This document shows positions 55,749 through 63,024 of a stretch of DNA of 64,000 nt, in pieces. A program made the position numbers and the translations under genes. The notes below the pieces were generated by a model. That model worked only from the letters and a program-made list of their open reading frames with translations. It searched no databases and was not told the DNA's origin. The DNA is from Lewinella cohaerens DSM 23179 (GTDB lineage: Bacteria > Bacteroidota > Bacteroidia > Chitinophagales > Saprospiraceae). The first letter of the stretch is position 1, and every line of letters begins with the position of its first letter. Where the stretch lies: positions 1 through 64,000 of the forward strand of contig NZ_KB903550.1 in assembly GCF_000379805.1 (NCBI RefSeq), written 5' to 3'.

Positions 55749-56005
55749 AACGACCGAACATTACCAATGTTGGGATAAAAACGGAGTTGAAATAGCATGT
55801 GACTAAAATAAATCAGCTTCTAACCCATTTTGAGCCGCTGGAAAGGCATTTGTCTTATGCTAAAGCGATGAATGTATTATTTCTTTTCACAGCTTCGGTT
55901 ACCTAAAGCTTTGATTGCGAGGATAAACTATTACAGGATCACGGCCTTTGAAAAGAAAATTTGTAAAAAAGTACTGTACAACTTGCCTCCTAATAAAATA
56001 TGTCC
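55749..56005. other. intergenic region with a short ORF remnant
   Basis: It contains a palindrome AACATT-ACC-AATGTT near 55757-55771 and a 35-codon open frame from GTG 55799 to 55906 (TKINQLLTHFEPLERHLSYA). That frame may be the start of a lost gene. Otherwise nothing recognised. Confidence 0.3.
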
Positions 56006-56013
56006 TAGATTTG
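55983..56013 (+). promoter_or_regulatory. promoter of tRNA-Phe and probably the his leader
   Basis: TTG at 55983-55985 and TAGATTTG at 56006-56013 (TAnnTTTG) are 20 nt apart. Transcription would begin near 56019, 30 nt before the tRNA. No comparable promoter fits in the 15 nt between tRNA and his leader peptide. Confidence 0.6.
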
Positions 56014-56048: not shown

Positions 56049-56121
56049 GGTGCGGTAGCTCAGTTGGTAGAGCAATGGACTGAAAATCCATGTGTCGGCG
56101 GTTCGATTCCGCCCCACACCA
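56049..56121 (+). tRNA. tRNA-Phe (GAA)
   Basis: The cloverleaf fits: acceptor GGTGCGG with CCACACC (one C-A mismatch), D arm with AGCTCAGTTGGTAGAGC, anticodon stem GGA-CTGAAAA-TCC with anticodon GAA, variable loop, and T arm GGCGG-TTCGATT-CCGCC. The discriminator is A121 and CCA is not encoded. The his leader ATG follows after 15 nt. Confidence 0.95.
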
Positions 56122-56136
56122 CTTCTTTCAGCAATT

Positions 56137-56211
56137 ATGAACGTAACTTTTGTACATCATCATCATTCAGGCTTTGCTTTTGCGGCGAATGGTGATCTGG
56201 TGGGTGCATAA
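56137..56211 (+). CDS. hisL: histidine operon leader peptide
   Basis: A 24-residue ORF reading M-N-V-T-F-V-H-H-H-H-S-G-F-A-F-A-A-N-G-D then LVGA and stop. Four consecutive CAT codons occupy 56155-56166. It ends 20 nt before a strong terminator and 148 nt before hisG. Four adjacent His codons in a short leader directly upstream of a his operon are the classic sign of ribosome-mediated transcription attenuation. When charged tRNA-His is scarce, stalling at these codons would favour the antiterminator (56182-56192 with 56243-56253). The peptide itself has no other role. Confidence 0.85.
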   Translation: MNVTFVHHHHSGFAFAANGDLVGA

Positions 56212-56253
56212 TTACTGAATTAACACACAATAAAAAGGTCTTCCGTTAGTCGC
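56182..56253 (+). promoter_or_regulatory. candidate antiterminator of the his attenuator
   Basis: GCGGCGAATGG (56182-56192), 15 nt after the His codons, can pair with CCGTTAGTCGC (56243-56253): 8 Watson-Crick pairs, 2 G-U and one mismatch over 11 positions. The second arm is the upper 5' arm and loop of the terminator, so the two structures exclude each other. Energies were not calculated. Confidence 0.55.
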
Positions 56254-56268
56254 GGGAGGCCTTTTTTT
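56232..56268 (+). terminator. intrinsic terminator/attenuator upstream of hisG
   Basis: Bases 56232-56245 pair with 56253-56266 (14 bp including two G-U pairs) around a 7-nt loop. The 3' arm runs directly into a T tract (56262-56268). It is the terminator expected in a his attenuator. Confidence 0.85.
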
Positions 56269-56359
56269 ATTTCCCTAAGTCAAGGTTTTGACGGAAATAA
56301 GTCACTTGGCCTCCAACACAAACGGGGGAATACTGTTCCAAACCATAAAATACCCAAAA

Positions 56360-57220
56360 ATGGCCAAACGACTCAAAGTAGCTGTTCAAAAATCCGGGCG
56401 CTTACTCGATGATTCACTCAAATTACTCAAAGAATGTGGCATCAGTATTGATAACGGGCGCAACCAGCTAAAAGCTTCAGCGCGTAACTTTCCAATCGAT
56501 GTGTTGTATCTCCGCAACGGAGATATTCCTCAGTATGTGCAAGATGGCGTAGCGGATATCGGGATCATTGGGCAAAACACGGTGCTCGAAAAAGAGAAAA
56601 ACATTAAAGAGGCGCTACAATTGGGGTTCTCTAAATGCCGCCTGTCTATTGCCACTCCTCGACAAACCGATTACTCCGGACCTCAGTGGCTGGCAGGCAA
56701 GCGTATCGCTACCTCCTACCCCAATTCGCTCCGCCAGTATCTCAAAAGCAATAATGTTACTGCCGAAATCCACGAAATATCTGGCTCGGTAGAAATTGCT
56801 CCCAACATTGGCTTAGCTGATGCCATCTGTGATTTGGTAAGCACCGGCAGCACACTTTTTAAGAACAACCTAGTGGAACAAGAGGTGATGTTCAAGTCGC
56901 AGGCTTGTATCGTACAAAACGAAGCTTTAGATCCCGAACTACAGCAGATTTTGGACAAGCTGGTCTTCCGCATTCAGTCCGTCCTGACAGCCCGCAAAAA
57001 CAAATACCTTCTGATGAATGCCCGCGACGAAGCCGTGCAAGACATCATCAATGTACTGCCCGGCATGAAGAGTCCTACCGTTATGCCACTCGCACAAAGT
57101 GGTTGGAGCTCCATCCATACCGTTATTTCAGAAGACCGCTTTTGGGATATTATTGATTCCCTCAAAGACAAGGGTGCGGAGGGTATTTTGATTGTTCCGA
57201 TTCAGAAGATGATTCTTTGA
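56360..57220 (+). CDS. hisG: ATP phosphoribosyltransferase, long form
   Basis: HisG catalyses the first step of histidine biosynthesis, condensing ATP and PRPP. The 286-residue length fits the long form with a C-terminal ACT-like regulatory domain (about 210-286, LLMNARDEAVQDIINVLPG, then VISEDRFWDIIDSLKDKGAEGILIVPI) that binds histidine. The catalytic part has VAVQKSGRL (residues 6-14), IGIIGQNT and the PRPP loop DLVSTGSTL. ATG 56360 (MAKRLKVAVQ) is chosen; the frame upstream to 56288 is not family-like. First gene of the his operon, preceded by an attenuator. Confidence 0.95.
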   Translation: MAKRLKVAVQKSGRLLDDSLKLLKECGISIDNGRNQLKASARNFPIDVLYLRNGDIPQYVQDGVADIGIIGQNTVLEKEKNIKEALQLGFSKCRLSIATPRQTDYSGPQWLAGKRIATSYPNSLRQYLKSNNVTAEIHEISGSVEIAPNIGLADAICDLVSTGSTLFKNNLVEQEVMFKSQACIVQNEALDPELQQILDKLVFRIQSVLTARKNKYLLMNARDEAVQDIINVLPGMKSPTVMPLAQSGWSSIHTVISEDRFWDIIDSLKDKGAEGILIVPIQKMIL

Positions 57221-57477
57221 TGATGAGGCTTGCTTTGAAGTATGCCCTAGTGTAACGTTTTAACAGGCAAGCCTCATCGTATTAGGTATTTAGTACGGGG
57301 TACTGGGATTACCTGCGGTGATCGTCGCAGGCTCCTCAGAGTTGTCGTTCCTCCTCAGAGTTTAGCAAACCCTATGGTTGAACCTGCCAAGTACCTTTTA
57401 CCTTGTACCCAGTACAGTGATTTTATATAATTCAGCTCACTGACGATACATTTTTATAATCAAATCTCACGTTACTT
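57221..57477 (+). other. structured 257-nt spacer inside the his operon
   Basis: Contains GATGAGGCTTGC (57222-57233) with inverse GCAAGCCTCATC (57267-57278), GTACTGGG (57300-57307) with inverse CCCAGTAC (57408-57415), CCTGCG/CGCAGG (57312-57331) and a direct repeat CTCCTCAGAGTT (57332-57343 and 57351-57362). No ORF. The other operon gaps are 1-4 nt or overlaps. Confidence 0.65.
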
Positions 57478-58764
57478 ATGCAACTCTATCTCAATGCTGA
57501 TCCTGAAAAGTGGCCAGAAATTCTGGCGCGCCCAGCCCTGGATTTGGCCCAGCTCGAAGCGCCAGTCAATGCGATCCTTCAGGAAGTAGCTACACGGGGT
57601 GATGATGCCTTGCTGGATTTTACGGCCAAGTTTGATGGCGTTCGCCTCGCAGAGTTGGCGGTAAGCAAAGAGGAAATAGCACTGGCCGCAGAACAATTAC
57701 CGGAAGCGTTACGGACTGCGATCCAAACGGCAAAAAGCAATATTTCACAATTTCATGCGGCCCAGCAGGAAACGCCTCTGGTGATAGAAACCATGCCGGG
57801 CGTTCGCTGCTGGCGCAAGAGTGTAGGTATTGAACGGGTGGGCTTGTACATTCCTGGCGGTACGGCGCCTTTGTTTTCAACGGTTCTTATGCTTGCGGTA
57901 CCCGCTCAGTTGGCAGGGTGCAAAGAAATTGTTTTGTGTACGCCGCCGCAAAAGGATGGTACGGTACATCCCGCCATTCTTTACGCTGCCCAATTAGCGG
58001 GTGTGGAACGTATCTTTCGGGTAGGCGGCGCCCAAGCCATTGCAGCGATGGCTTATGGCACGGAAAGTATTCCGGCGACTTACAAGATATTCGGCCCTGG
58101 AAATGCCTACGTGACTGTTGCCAAGCAATTGGTAAGCAGGTTGGGAGTAGCCATCGATATGCCAGCCGGCCCCTCCGAAGTGATGGTTGTCGCCGATGAA
58201 ACAGCAGATCCCGATTTCGTGGCGGCAGACCTCTTGAGTCAGGCCGAACACGGTGCCGATAGTCAAGTCGTATTGGCCACTTATTCAGAGCAGATGGCTA
58301 AACGTGTGATAAAGGCGACGGAGGAACAACTCGCGAGCTTACCTCGGCGTGAATTTGCTACAGCCAGTTTGGCAAACAGTTCGGTACTGGTGGTCTCTAC
58401 ACCAGCGGAAGCTATAAAGTTGATCAACGCTTATGCCCCGGAACACTTGATCTTATCGGTAGATAACCCAGAGGAATTGGCTGCGGGCGTTATCAACGCT
58501 GGCTCTGTATTTATGGGGCACTACACACCGGAGTCGGTTGGCGATTACGCCAGTGGTACAAATCACACTTTACCCACCAATGGCTTTGCGCGGGCATACA
58601 GCGGAGTATCCTTGGATGCTTTTGTAAGGAAAATTACTTACCAGCAATTGACCAAAGAGGGTTTACAAAATATTGGCCCTACCGTAGAAACGATGGCAAC
58701 GGCAGAATCCTTAGTAGCCCACCAACGCGCAGTGAGTATTCGTTTAGCAAAGTTAAATTCTTGA
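57478..58764 (+). CDS. hisD: histidinol dehydrogenase
   Basis: HisD oxidises histidinol to histidine in two NAD-dependent steps. The 428-residue protein shows the family motifs KSVGIERVGLYIPGG, KIFGPGNAYVTVAKQ, MPAGPSEVMVVAD, LLSQAEHGADSQ and the C-terminal HTLPTNGFARAYSGVSLDAF with zinc-binding and catalytic His. Length is normal for the family (about 430). It is preceded by a 257-nt structured spacer and followed after 4 nt by hisC. Confidence 0.97.
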   Translation: MQLYLNADPEKWPEILARPALDLAQLEAPVNAILQEVATRGDDALLDFTAKFDGVRLAELAVSKEEIALAAEQLPEALRTAIQTAKSNISQFHAAQQETPLVIETMPGVRCWRKSVGIERVGLYIPGGTAPLFSTVLMLAVPAQLAGCKEIVLCTPPQKDGTVHPAILYAAQLAGVERIFRVGGAQAIAAMAYGTESIPATYKIFGPGNAYVTVAKQLVSRLGVAIDMPAGPSEVMVVADETADPDFVAADLLSQAEHGADSQVVLATYSEQMAKRVIKATEEQLASLPRREFATASLANSSVLVVSTPAEAIKLINAYAPEHLILSVDNPEELAAGVINAGSVFMGHYTPESVGDYASGTNHTLPTNGFARAYSGVSLDAFVRKITYQQLTKEGLQNIGPTVETMATAESLVAHQRAVSIRLAKLNS

Positions 58765-58768
58765 CCCC

Positions 58769-59821
58769 ATGCCTCAGATTTTTGATCTTAAACAATGGGT
58801 GCGTCCTAATATCGCGGCGCTAAAACCCTACTCTTCGGCGCGTGACGAGTTTAAAGGCACTGCCGATGTTTACCTGGATGCCAATGAGAACCCCTACGAA
58901 ACAGGCCTCAATCGCTACCCTGATCCAGGTGCAGCAGCAGTAAAGGCAAAGCTGGAAAAACTAAAGGGTATACCAACCAACCAAATTATGCTGGGCAATG
59001 GCAGCGACGAAGTCATTGATCTTTTATTTCGCATTTTTTGTGAACCTGGGCAAGATGAAGTCATCATCCTGCCACCGACTTACGGCATGTACCAAGTGAG
59101 CGCAGACATTAATAACGTAGGTGTGGTAACGGTACCCCTGAAGAAGCGTTTTGTGCCAGATGTACCCGCTATTTTGGCAGCAGCCAACGAAAAAACAAAG
59201 ATGCTTTGGCTCTGTACTCCGAACAACCCCAGCGGCAACGACTTCCCCGCCAGCGATATCGAACTATTGTTAAAGGAGTTTCCCGGCATCGTGGTCATTG
59301 ATGAAGCCTACGTCGATTTTGCCGGGCGAGATGCTTACATCAGTTGGTTGGAACGCTACCCTAACCTGGTTGTCATGCAGACCTTCTCTAAAGCCTGGGG
59401 GTTAGCAGGCATTCGCCTCGGAATGGCCTTTGCCTCGCCGGAAATTATAGCCTTACTCAATGCCGTGAAGCCGCCCTATAATGTGAATCGACTTACGCAA
59501 CAAGCTGCCCTCGCCGCCTTGGAAAAGCAGGAGGAACAGGCACAACAGGTTATCGTTTTACTAGGCCAGCGTACCTTGTTGCAACAATACCTCAGCGGCT
59601 TGGAATTTGTCGAACGTATCTACCCTTCCAGCGCCAACTTTATCCTGGCCAAAGTGACCGATCCACAAGGGATCTACAATTACCTGATGAACAAAGGCAT
59701 TATCGTTCGCGATCGTTCACGGCAGTACCTCTGCGAAGGATGCTTGCGTTTTACGGTAGGTACACCAGAAGAAAATGAAAAATTATTCCGGGCCTTATTG
59801 GCATATCCGAAAACAACGTAA
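58769..59821 (+). CDS. hisC: histidinol-phosphate aminotransferase
   Basis: A 350-residue fold-type I PLP aminotransferase converting imidazole acetol phosphate to histidinol phosphate with glutamate. Motifs: [10 protein letters not shown] near the N-terminus, [33 protein letters not shown] and the PLP-binding lysine in [13 protein letters not shown] (about 207-219). Starts 4 nt after hisD; hisB follows after 2 nt. Confidence 0.97.
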
Positions 59822-59823
59822 CC

Positions 59824-60960
59824 ATGCAAAAAATACTCTTTCTTGATCGCGACGGCACCCTCAATTTGGAACCAGAAGATTACCAGGTAGACGCCTTGTC
59901 AAAAGTTGTCTTTTATCCAGAGATATTTCAATACCTGGGGCGCATCGCTCGGGAGCTGGATTACGAACTCGTAATGGTTACCAACCAGGATGGTTTGGGT
60001 ACGGACAGCTTTCCGGAAGACACCTTTTGGCCTGCTCAGAATATGATTGTTGATACGCTGGCAGGAGAGGGCATTACCTTCTCCGAGATCATTATTGACC
60101 GCACCTTTGCGAAAGACAACCAACCTACCCGTAAACCTGGTACCGCACTCCTTACAAAGTATCTGGAAGGCGATTATGATTTGGCGAATAGCTATGTTGT
60201 AGGAGATCGCCTGACCGATATGCAGCTAGCGAAAAACCTGGGTGCTAAAGGCATTTGGATGAACAATGCGCCAGCCTTAGGAGCCGATGAATTACAGAGC
60301 GAGCAACTACAGGAATTGGAAAGCACCATTGCACTCACCTCCACCAGCTGGGCCGACATCTACGCCTTGCTGAAACTTGGTGGCCGTGAAGCCCGGGTAC
60401 ACCGCCAAACCAAGGAGACGGATATTTTGATAGAACTCCGTTTGGATGGTACCGGCCAGGGAAAAATGGATACAGGCCTCGGGTTTTTCGATCACATGCT
60501 GGATCAACTGTCCCGTCATTCTGGTTGCGATCTTAATGTGACAGTAAAGGGAGACCTGCACATCGATGAGCACCACACCATCGAAGATACCGCCCTCGCA
60601 CTTGGGGAAGCTTTCGCACAAGCATTAGGTAACAAGATAGGCATAGAACGTTACGGTTTTTACCTCCCCATGGATGATGTGTTGGCTCAGGTTGCCATAG
60701 ATTTTGGTGGCCGGCCCTGGATCGTTTGGGATGCAGAATACAAGCGTGAGAAGATTGGCGACATGCCAACGGAAATGTTTTTCCACTTTTTTAAATCCTT
60801 CTCGGATGCTGCCCGTTGTAATTTGAACATTAAGGTAGAAGGAGACAACGAGCACCACAAAATCGAAGCGACATTTAAAGCTTTGGCGAAAGCCATAAAA
60901 ATGGCCAAACGTCGCGATGCGCGTGATGCCCAATTGCCAAGCACCAAAGGAATACTGTAA
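59824..60960 (+). CDS. hisB: bifunctional histidinol-phosphatase/imidazoleglycerol-phosphate dehydratase
   Basis: A 378-residue fusion. The N-terminal HAD-type phosphatase (about 1-170) has FLDRDGTL (catalytic Asp8 and Asp10), VTNQDGLG and a C-terminal acidic motif. The C-terminal dehydratase (about 185-378) has [32 protein letters not shown] and [12 protein letters not shown] with the di-manganese His ligands. This fused form is typical of enterobacteria and many Bacteroidota. Tightly spaced to hisC (2 nt) and hisH (1 nt). Confidence 0.97.
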
Positions 60961-60961
60961 G

Positions 60962-61552
60962 ATGAAAATTGCAATCATTGACTACAACGCCGGAAATGTA
61001 CGCTCGGTACTTTATGCCATGGAGCGCATTGGCCATGAGGCACAGTTGACCTCCGACCATGAAGTAATCCGTGCTGCCGATAAGGTGATCTTTCCAGGGG
61101 TTGGCGCAGCAGGAACAACGATGGCCTTTCTTCGGGAAAAAGGCCTAGACAAACTGATACCCAGCTTAACACAACCTGTATTGGGCGTATGTTTGGGGAT
61201 GCAGTTGCTTTGCGATTATTCGGAAGAAGACGGTCATACCCCTTGTTTAGGAATCATACCTCAGGCGGTGAAGCGTTTCCTGCCACAGCAGGGAGAGAAA
61301 GTACCTCATATGGGGTGGAATACATTACGTTTGCACGAAAATAGCTGGTTGAACGCCGAACTGGAAGGCCAGCATGCTTATTTCGTACATAGTTATTATG
61401 TAGAACTGGGCCCTTACACGGTAGCCGAAACCGACCATGTTCATCCTTTCAGTGCAGTGTTGCAAAAGGATAATTTTTATGCCACCCAGTTTCACCCAGA
61501 GAAATCGGGAAGCGTGGGCGAACGGATTTTACTTGATTTTTTAGACAGATAA
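60962..61552 (+). CDS. hisH: imidazole glycerol phosphate synthase, glutaminase subunit
   Basis: A 196-residue class I glutamine amidotransferase supplying ammonia to HisF. MKIAIIDYNAGNVRSV opens it; PGVGAAGT, the nucleophile elbow GVCLGMQLL (catalytic Cys) and TQFHPEKSG (His, Glu) complete the triad. ATG 60962 is one base after the hisB stop; the reading frame open upstream overlaps hisB and is not used. Confidence 0.97.
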   Translation: MKIAIIDYNAGNVRSVLYAMERIGHEAQLTSDHEVIRAADKVIFPGVGAAGTTMAFLREKGLDKLIPSLTQPVLGVCLGMQLLCDYSEEDGHTPCLGIIPQAVKRFLPQQGEKVPHMGWNTLRLHENSWLNAELEGQHAYFVHSYYVELGPYTVAETDHVHPFSAVLQKDNFYATQFHPEKSGSVGERILLDFLDR

Positions 61553-61555
61553 GAT

Positions 61556-62275
61556 ATGTATATTATTCCTGCAATCGACATTATTGATGGCAAATGTGTT
61601 CGCCTCACCCAGGGCGACTATAACCAGAAAAAAGTCTATAACGAAGACCCATTGGAGGTCGCAAAAGCCTTTGCTGACGCCGGGGTGACTCGCCTTCATT
61701 TGGTAGACCTAGATGGTGCCCGAGCCAAGCATATCGTTAACTATAAGGTATTGGAACGCATCGCTACCAAAACCAATCTGCACATCGATTTTGGTGGTGG
61801 CCTCAAGAAAGATGATGACCTGTGGATTGCTTTTGAATGTGGTGCTCAGCAGATTACAGGAGGAACTGTAGCGGTAAAAGCCCCTGATCTGTTTCTATCG
61901 TGGCTGGAACGCTTTGGGCCTGAACGTATCATCTTGGGAGCTGATGTTAAGAACGGAAAAATAGCCGTTAGCGGTTGGCAAGAAGAAAGCCAGGAAGAGT
62001 TACTTCCTTTTCTTGAGCGTTACCTGGCGGCAGGGGTGCGCTATGCTGTTTGTACCGATGTCTCCAAAGATGGCCTTTTGGCCGGTTCCGCCAAGGAACT
62101 TTACGCACAAATCAGGACAGAATTTCCAGATTTGCAACTAATCGCCAGCGGCGGTGTGACGGCTACAGACGAAGTAGAGGAATTGCGAGAAATGGGATGC
62201 TTTGGGGCCATTATCGGGAAAGCGATTTACGAGGGGAAGATTTCTTTGAAAGATTTAATGAGAGACCAATGTTAG
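61556..62275 (+). CDS. hisA: ProFAR isomerase
   Basis: HisA isomerises N'-ProFAR to PRFAR. The 239-residue (beta-alpha)8 barrel has the catalytic Asp in [31 protein letters not shown], the second Asp in [14 protein letters not shown] and IASGGV at the C-terminal phosphate site. Begins 3 nt after hisH and overlaps hisF by 7 nt. Confidence 0.97.
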
Positions 62276-63024
62276 CAAAACGAATCATACCCTGCCTAGA
62301 TATTAAAGATGGGCGTACCGTGAAAGGGGTCAACTTTGTCCAATTACGCGATGCTGGTGACCCGGTAGAGCTGGGCGCCCGCTACAGCGAAGAAGGAGCC
62401 GATGAATTGGTGTTTCTGGACATCACGGCTACCCATGAAAAGCGTAAAACACTGGCCGCACTGGCGCGAAAAATTGCCCGGCACCTCAAGATACCTTTTA
62501 CGGTTGGTGGAGGTATTCGGTCGGTTGATGATGTAGGAATGCTACTGGATGCCGGCGCTGATAAAGTCTCTATTAACTCAGCAGCCGTGCGCCGGCCGGA
62601 ACTCATCAGCGAACTGGCGAGGGACTTTGGTAGCCAATTTGTCGTACTAGCCGTAGATGCAAAGCTAGTAGGCGACGAATGGTATGTACACCTCAATGGT
62701 GGCCGGATTGCAACGGAGATGAAACTCTTTGATTGGGTAAAAGAAGCGGAGAATCGTGGCGCTGGAGAAATTATGTTTACCAGTATGGACCATGACGGCA
62801 CCAAGGCGGGGTTTGCCAATGAAGCTACAGCAAAGATTGCTGAACTGGTACAAATTCCCGTAATTGCTTCGGGAGGAGCAGGAAGCATGGAGCACTTTGC
62901 AGAAGTGTTTACTAGCGGCCAGGCCGATGCCGGGCTAGCCGCCAGTATTTTTCACTTTGGGGAAATACCTATTCCGCAGCTAAAAAGTTACCTGCAAGGA
63001 AAACGTATTCCGGTAAGGGTCTAG
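62269..63024 (+). CDS. hisF: imidazole glycerol phosphate synthase, cyclase subunit
   Basis: HisF uses ammonia from HisH and PRFAR to make imidazole glycerol phosphate and AICAR. The 251-residue barrel begins [23 protein letters not shown], then [22 protein letters not shown] and [27 protein letters not shown] 62269 overlaps the end of hisA, implying translational coupling. It converges with the membrane gene at 63021 by a 4-base overlap, which ends the operon here. Confidence 0.97.

Follow-up and report, generated by a model that had tools for sequence, protein, structure and literature searches.

What decides whether transcription runs on into the histidine (his) operon of Lewinella cohaerens DSM 23179, where a tRNA-Phe gene, a short open reading frame (ORF) with a run of His codons and a hairpin with a T tract all lie ahead of hisG? 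We addressed this question in a 64,000-nt stretch of contig NZ_KB903550.1 (positions 1 to 64,000; hereafter, the window), for which a first-pass annotation, made from the letters alone, had proposed the classical logic of peptide attenuation. Our analysis supports that proposal: the His run, the 1:2 hairpin, the antiterminator and the terminator are all present ahead of hisG, the leader, the terminator and the arm pairing are conserved in relatives, and the locus very probably carries a ribosome-mediated (peptide) attenuator of hisGDCBHAF that is set into the end of a tRNA-Phe transcription unit. Peptide attenuation is the best reading of these parts and is not new in kind. While the attenuator of the first-pass annotation stands, the tRNA-Phe gene and the absence of a detected promoter between it and hisG had been overlooked. 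The coordinates of all features are given in Table 1.

Translation confirmed the short ORF with four tandem CAT codons, which is the only HHHH ORF among the 646 ATG-started ORFs of 8–60 aa on both strands of the window. Its start codon lies 14 nt behind the end of tRNA-Phe, and tandem codons for the product amino acid (CAT ×4) precede the operon for its own biosynthesis, beginning with hisG. Between the leader and this first gene stands an intrinsic terminator (hairpin proper, 56232–56266; T7, 56262–56268), with an energy of −20.0 kcal/mol alone and −20.5 kcal/mol in a longer segment; the terminator and T tract were thus as first described, except that the stem has 15 bp and not 14. Three rival structures have nearly equal energies, namely the 1:2 hairpin (−21.4 kcal/mol), the 2:3 antiterminator (−20.2 kcal/mol) and the 3:4 terminator (−20.5 kcal/mol). 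In the 1:2 hairpin, every one of the 12 His-codon bases has a partner within 56189–56204, largely in arm 2. The best arm 2/arm 3 duplex joins 56180–56198 to 56236–56255 (−20.2 kcal/mol, or −20.7 kcal/mol as a fold of 56180–56254), and its core (56182–56198 with 56236–56253) reaches −16.9 kcal/mol by itself. The alternative pairing proposed in the first-pass annotation (56182–56192 with 56243–56253) holds for 10 of its 11 pairs but includes two G-U pairs and one mismatch, and it is only half of this longer duplex. The antiterminator is predicted to exclude the terminator and to become available when a ribosome sits on the His codons; the last of these codons lies 15 nt ahead of the arm-2 core, a spacing that would fit the leading edge of a stalled ribosome, going by general knowledge of ribosome footprints. 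As a whole, the segment 56100–56300 folds more stably than 200 out of 200 dinucleotide shuffles (z −4.2).

Table 1. Features of the tRNA-Phe–his region of the window, in order of position
Feature	Position	Strand	Detail
TTG of −33 element, predicted promoter	55983..55985	+	20 nt ahead of −7 box
−7 box TAGATTTG, predicted promoter	56006..56013	+	Bacteroidota sigma-A consensus TAnnTTTG; 35 nt ahead of tRNA
tRNA-Phe (GAA)	56049..56122	+	sole tRNA-Phe found in the window's genome
Leader peptide ORF	56137..56211	+	24 codons + stop; product MNVTFVHHHHSGFAFAANGDLVGA; counterparts in relatives
Regulatory His codons, CAT ×4	56155..56166	+	codons 7–10 of leader ORF
1:2 hairpin	56143..56215	+	His codons in 5′ arm, arm 2 in 3′ arm; fold of 56137–56230, −21.4 kcal/mol
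Arm 2, antiterminator 5′ side	56180..56198	+	core begins at 56182
Intrinsic terminator 3:4	56232..56268	+	15 bp with T7; between tRNA-Phe and his operon
Arm 3, antiterminator 3′ side	56236..56255	+	terminator left arm + loop + first right-arm bases
hisG, ATP phosphoribosyltransferase	56360..57220	+	TIGR00070, 199.8 bits (cut-off 75.75)
hisD	57478..58764	+	TIGR00069
hisC	58769..59821	+	TIGR01141
hisB, bifunctional	59824..60960	+	NF003937
hisH	60965..61552	+	TIGR01855
hisA	61556..62275	+	TIGR00007
hisF	62272..63024	+	TIGR00735

To see how far this arrangement is shared, we collected hisG upstream regions from all 18 of the 40 relatives' genomes that have hisG and from an even sample of the class, in which 127 of 295 genomes have hisG and 115 were examined (the 12 omitted were fragments, contig-edge matches, one weak 29% match and some more distant matches). 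A further 15 places (6 from the window's family or order and 9 from outside the class) came from 252 genomes with a match, some others of which were already in the set, and 66 of 68 named loci were taken, L207 and L211 being left out as their hisG start is missing. The total of 213 loci came down to 210 unique ones after removal of the exact duplicates L148, L149 and L160; many of the loci are closely related. We found an ATG leader with at least four His in 8 residues at 163 of the 210 loci, compared with 0 on the reverse strand and 0–2 in five dinucleotide-shuffle sets. With at least three His in 8 residues, the number rose to 185 (reverse strand: 11; shuffles: 5–16), and in 138 of these 185 leaders the first His is codon 6 or 7. 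The even class sample has such a leader at 98 of its 115 hisG loci and a leader together with a terminator at 82, while outside the window's class it was present at 5 of the 9 loci examined. We would extend the claim to the class (Bacteroidia, as judged from named relatives) and no farther, the rest of the phylum being represented by only those nine loci.

The terminator is conserved along with the leader. Defined as a hairpin with 6 bp or more, an energy of −8 kcal/mol or better and a T run, it was detected after 165 of the 185 leaders (3–6 with shuffled spacers) and starts 17–52 nt past the leader stop in 164 of the 165. The antiterminator duplex was scored with narrow arms (the terminator left arm plus 4 nt of the loop) and with wide ones (left side, loop and the first 5 nt on the right), the latter since the duplex crosses the terminator loop in those loci that have a tRNA-Phe(GAA) gene on the same strand no more than 700 nt upstream of hisG (27 of 210 loci, 30 before removal of three duplicates; hereafter, linked loci). 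Wide arms gave a mean z of −2.36, with 117 of 165 loci in the best 5% of shuffles, and narrow arms a mean z of −2.45 overall. When arms were permuted among loci, none of 2,000 permutations was as good as the own arm 2/arm 3 pairing in 25 linked loci, nor in 70 other loci drawn at random from 140. In a table of nine cores from the window's clade, eight of the nine positions are paired in 9/9 loci and one in 7/9; one position runs through A-U, G-U and G-C and another through G-C, G-U and A-U, each with a full double change in one locus. The nine were chosen from 18 loci: L156, L157, L159 and L208 were left out as the automatic finder gave wrong arm-2 cores, and also outside are L002, L003 and L206 (core the same as that of L001), L005 (shorter loop, out of register) and L154 (different core type). 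No pair counts were made on alignment A1, because there the terminator is two columns out of register between L001–L004 and the rest; the comparison of own with permuted duplex energies and the nine-core table were used in their place. The first-pass annotation had named conservation of His-codon runs and stems in relatives as one check on its proposal, and leader, terminator and arm pairing are indeed all kept across hisG loci. It is mainly because of this conservation that chance is excluded.

Two groups of leaders differ from this pattern. Five loci of family f56 (L125–L127, L129 and L130; HisG ~47% identical) have His-rich leaders ahead of hisG and no detected terminator. In seven others (L016, L080, L085, L088, L098, L108 and L118), the His leader ends in HHSS right before the stop; an intrinsic terminator went undetected in six of the seven, and L080 has only one of −8.0 kcal/mol. 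The HHSS-ending leaders perhaps act differently, by a translational or a Rho-dependent route.

What sets the locus of the window apart is the tRNA gene. The predicted promoter lies ahead of tRNA-Phe, with a transcription start expected at about 56018; the −7 box is reported to occupy −12 to −5 (PMC9723704). Since this promoter precedes the tRNA, the attenuator would also serve as the terminator of tRNA-Phe. An RNase Z homologue is encoded in the genome (E 3e-85; 287 bits, slightly below the curated cut-off of 292.95), and the leader is predicted to have a 5′ untranslated region (5′ UTR) of ~15 nt only after RNase Z cleavage. Three weaker tRNA-Phe matches in the same genome (G000) turned out to be tRNA-Lys, tRNA-His and tRNA-Thr. 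Read by eye, the acceptor stem of tRNA-Phe (56049–56121) has an apparent C5-A68 mismatch (GGTGCGG with CCACACC), which is also seen in L004 and L009; L006 instead has CCGCACC with an encoded CCA.

The same order of promoter, tRNA and leader recurs in the linked loci. The leader starts 0–25 nt past the tRNA end called by ARAGORN in 23 of the 27, and it lies ~145 and ~225 nt farther downstream of the tRNA in L010 and L213, respectively. A promoter of the form TTG-N19-21-TAnnTT[TC]G stands ahead of the tRNA in 25 of the 25 linked loci that reach that far (the sequences of L010 and L159 end short of this region, hence 25 of 27), and a scan for the sigma-A −7 box alone found none from the tRNA to hisG in 25 of 27. 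Of 22 further tRNA-like matches in nine linked genomes, the 20 that were examined all proved not to be tRNA-Phe; G021 (L010) lies outside this check. The linked loci belong to genomes of the window's family (including G181) or to records that carry the name Lewinella, Neolewinella, Flavilitoribacter or Saprospiraceae. Two others come from records named only at the level of bacterium, whose HisG shares 81% (L148, a duplicate) and 95% (L206) identity with that of the window. On a HisG tree, 24 of 25 linked rows form one group that also takes in a single unlinked row, L008 (support 82), with G181 outside it; the linkage label changes 3 times, compared with a shuffled mean of 17.5, on what is a quick tree of 52 hand-picked rows with many open forks. 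L008, inside this clade, is without the tRNA and has a box of its own.

Six Lewinella or Neolewinella loci have the leader ATG directly behind the tRNA (L009, which is the same stretch as L160 of N. aquimaris, and L153, L155, L158, L163 and L214). An RNase Z cut behind the discriminator base would leave an mRNA that starts C-AUG at these loci, and tRNA 3′ maturation may in this way yield a near-leaderless leader mRNA. Short 5′ ends are also predicted among leaders without the tRNA (n = 162). The ATG lies no more than 60 nt from a TAnnTT[TC]G box in 110 of these (7.2 in shuffles), and 52 have no box within that distance. By box position, the 5′ UTR would be shorter than 10 nt in 56 of the 110 and absent in 5; a TTG lies 19–21 nt upstream of the box in only 57 of the 110, and in 20 of the 45 whose box lies no more than 10 nt from the ATG. 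Many his leaders are predicted to be near-leaderless, in a phylum where 5′ UTRs shorter than 10 nt make up ~3.7% in B. thetaiotaomicron (PMC7366714) and leaderless transcripts 5.5% in F. psychrophilum (PMC9723704).

These parts suggest the following mechanism. One promoter would drive the pre-tRNA-Phe, the leader ORF right behind it and, by way of the attenuator, the genes of the his operon as well. With ample His-tRNA, ribosomes would clear the four His codons, the 1:2 hairpin would lock arm 2 and the 3:4 terminator would form, so that the product of the transcript would be essentially tRNA-Phe alone. When charged tRNA-His is scarce, a ribosome would stall at codons 7–10 and mask approximately 56155–56180, the strand that pairs with arm 2; the freed arm 2 (56182–56198) would pair with arm 3 (56236–56253) before arm 4 is made, and the polymerase would continue into hisG. 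The tRNA lies upstream of the switch, and its supply should therefore be independent of the outcome. Going further, in Lewinella-type Bacteroidota the his attenuator could be what terminates the sole tRNA-Phe gene, and the switch could require RNase Z maturation, with release of a near-leaderless mRNA, in order to work; we put this forward tentatively, as a possibility that is somewhat doubtful. If it holds, a single transcript would supply a structural tRNA and a ribosome-sensing switch alike, and read-through into his would hinge on histidine and also on the processing of the tRNA.

Several results weigh against attenuation as the explanation. The energy model gives no kinetic winner among the three folds, no ATG leader with at least three His was found at 25 of the 210 loci, and no terminator was detected behind 20 of the 185 leaders. 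In the linked loci, the antiterminator signal is weak with narrow arms (mean z −0.93; window, −0.71), and with wide arms (mean z −2.07; window, −2.14) 11 of 25 loci fall outside the best 5%. The own pairing was no better than the permuted one in the Neolewinella-type subset (n = 7; 1,371 of 2,000 as good), perhaps as these loci hardly differ from one another. A control with arm 2 reversed gave 1,542 of 2,000 in the linked loci and 86 of 2,000 in the others, and in the latter a slight compositional signal is therefore left. Furthermore, a promoter-like box lies between the tRNA and hisG in 2 of the 27 linked loci, and L161 and L162 keep tRNA-Phe, the terminator and hisG without a His leader. 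The latter two, a Saprospiraceae metagenome-assembled genome and Neolewinella maritima, possibly represent natural loss of attenuation.

L161 and L162 would equally suit a hairpin that is merely the terminator of tRNA-Phe, with an incidental His-rich ORF and with hisG transcribed by leak or from another promoter. We consider this very unlikely, given that 185 of 210 loci have His leaders and 165 of these a terminator behind them, mostly with no tRNA within 700 nt, and that the pairing of arm 2 with arm 3 follows the locus. The leader ORF might instead encode a working small protein, such as a metal-binding His-rich peptide, next to a terminator that has nothing to do with its translation, and groups of loci do show some conserved stretches behind the His run. 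However, the traits common to the leaders are the His run near codon 6–7 and the place before a terminator, while the remainder varies by lineage; within the window's clade, conservation falls on the RNA arm complementary to the terminator. All of this makes a small protein highly improbable. Hardly any more credible is regulation by a T-box, a riboswitch or a protein in place of leader translation: His T-boxes are known in Firmicutes (PMC9413887), but we found nothing in favour of one here. Apart from tRNA, no Rfam family reached its gathering score, whether in the window or in 16 relatives' loci picked by hand, a T-box appeared in the window neither at gathering scores nor among the permissive matches listed to E 10, and His-codon runs that follow an ATG in frame are conserved.

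Attenuation by leader translation would also be compatible with a tRNA-Phe that is only a bystander, the his genes having a promoter of their own that escaped detection or tRNA processing being irrelevant. Most leaders lack an upstream tRNA, and a −7 box of their own, no more than 60 nt from the ATG, precedes 110 of the 162 in question; L008 lacks the tRNA and has its own box although it lies in the linked clade; and the scan was limited to the sigma-A box. Against this, 25 of 27 linked loci show no sigma-A box between tRNA and hisG, all 25 that reach far enough have a promoter before the tRNA, and the linkage is retained across the clade (24 of 25 linked rows together; 3 changes versus 17.5 when shuffled). 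We thus regard a mere bystander as rather unlikely, and hisG of the window probably has no other promoter than that of the tRNA.

Among known systems, the gammaproteobacterial his leader (RF00514; hisL of E. coli and Salmonella) comes close, with a His-run peptide, competing 1:2, 2:3 and 3:4 structures and a terminator followed by hisG. That leader carries seven His in a row, whereas the window has four, the leader of the window is predicted to be driven by the tRNA-Phe promoter, and no Shine-Dalgarno sequence is expected in its phylum. The His_leader model aligns in full to 56154–56271 (1–126 of 126) at 22.3 bits and E 0.15, compared with a gathering score of 49, which was reached by 0 of the 16 relatives' loci; membership in the family, as suggested by this alignment at a permissive score, was rejected as sub-threshold. 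Leaderless peptide attenuators are also known, namely Sinorhizobium trpL and the mycobacterial polycysteine leaders, in which the 5′ end is set by transcription initiation. Their near lack of a 5′ UTR matches what is predicted for many his leaders in our set; in the window's clade, by contrast, the 5′ end could arise by tRNA 3′ processing. Work by Vitreschak et al. (2004, FEMS Microbiol Lett) reportedly mentions attenuators in Bacteroidetes/Chlorobi and may hold his cases, as may Lopatovskaya et al. 2010 (cited in PMC4833913).

Within the phylum, the first-pass annotation was right to be unsure whether such a system had been described before: a 2021 Flavobacterium paper reports clues to leader peptides at amino-acid operons and a 5′ element of hisG in F. 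psychrophilum and other Flavobacteriaceae, i.e., in the same phylum and at the same gene (PMC9723704). The element differs in that the available part of that paper gives no hisG-specific structure or mechanism and no tRNA linkage, and claims conservation only within the family (PMC9723704). In B. thetaiotaomicron, short ORFs reminiscent of leader peptides have been noted (PMC7366714), and the accessible text of a paper on the his genes of the window's superphylum mentions attenuation once, for Salmonella and E. coli (PMC8305728). The Bacillus cereus group, some Eubacteriales and Erysipelotrichales share 3–5 tandem His codons with a terminator and an antiterminator before his (PMC9413887, 2022), but they belong to another phylum, and tRNA linkage goes unmentioned in the part of the paper available. 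Neither a tRNA-linked his attenuator nor a class-wide one in Bacteroidota was found in the literature searched, whose coverage excluded most subscription papers.

Peptide attenuation requires a ribosome close behind RNA polymerase. Attenuator parts conserved across Bacteroidia, which start translation without Shine-Dalgarno sequences (reported as absent in Flavobacterium psychrophilum; PMC9723704), would predict transcription-translation coupling in these bacteria and would offer many natural reporters of it. The fusion with tRNA-Phe would illustrate that an ordinary terminator of a tRNA gene can also take on the sensing of an amino acid, and it lets the role of tRNA maturation in starting leader translation be tested directly. 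The loci also provide material for an Rfam family, because no family other than tRNA reached its threshold here.

In the operon downstream (hisG-D-C-B-H-A-F, 56360–63024), every gene matches its NCBIfam equivalog. The hisG-hisD gap of 257 nt contains a perfect 12-nt inverted repeat (57222–57233 and 57267–57278) without a T run after it.

Finally, we scanned six genomes of the window's family at trpE, the prephenate dehydratase gene and leuA, in counts that have no shuffle control. At one threshold, no leucine leader was found ahead of leuA in any of the six. A Trp-rich leader with a strong terminator precedes trpE in 4 of the 6 genomes (L255, L256, L258 and L259), with leaders such as MNLCNQNNWWWHSKHSNQSE and terminators of −23 to −26 kcal/mol. 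Ahead of the prephenate dehydratase gene, all six genomes have a Phe-rich leader plus a terminator, and three loci (L250, L251 and L253) have two consecutive Phe/Tyr-rich short ORFs before one terminator, perhaps acting as a double Phe attenuator; the paired ORFs of L250, which belongs to the genome of the window itself, are MLSSNFFYFCGFYFYA and MPNYTTTISYSFYSFYFFYGAP.
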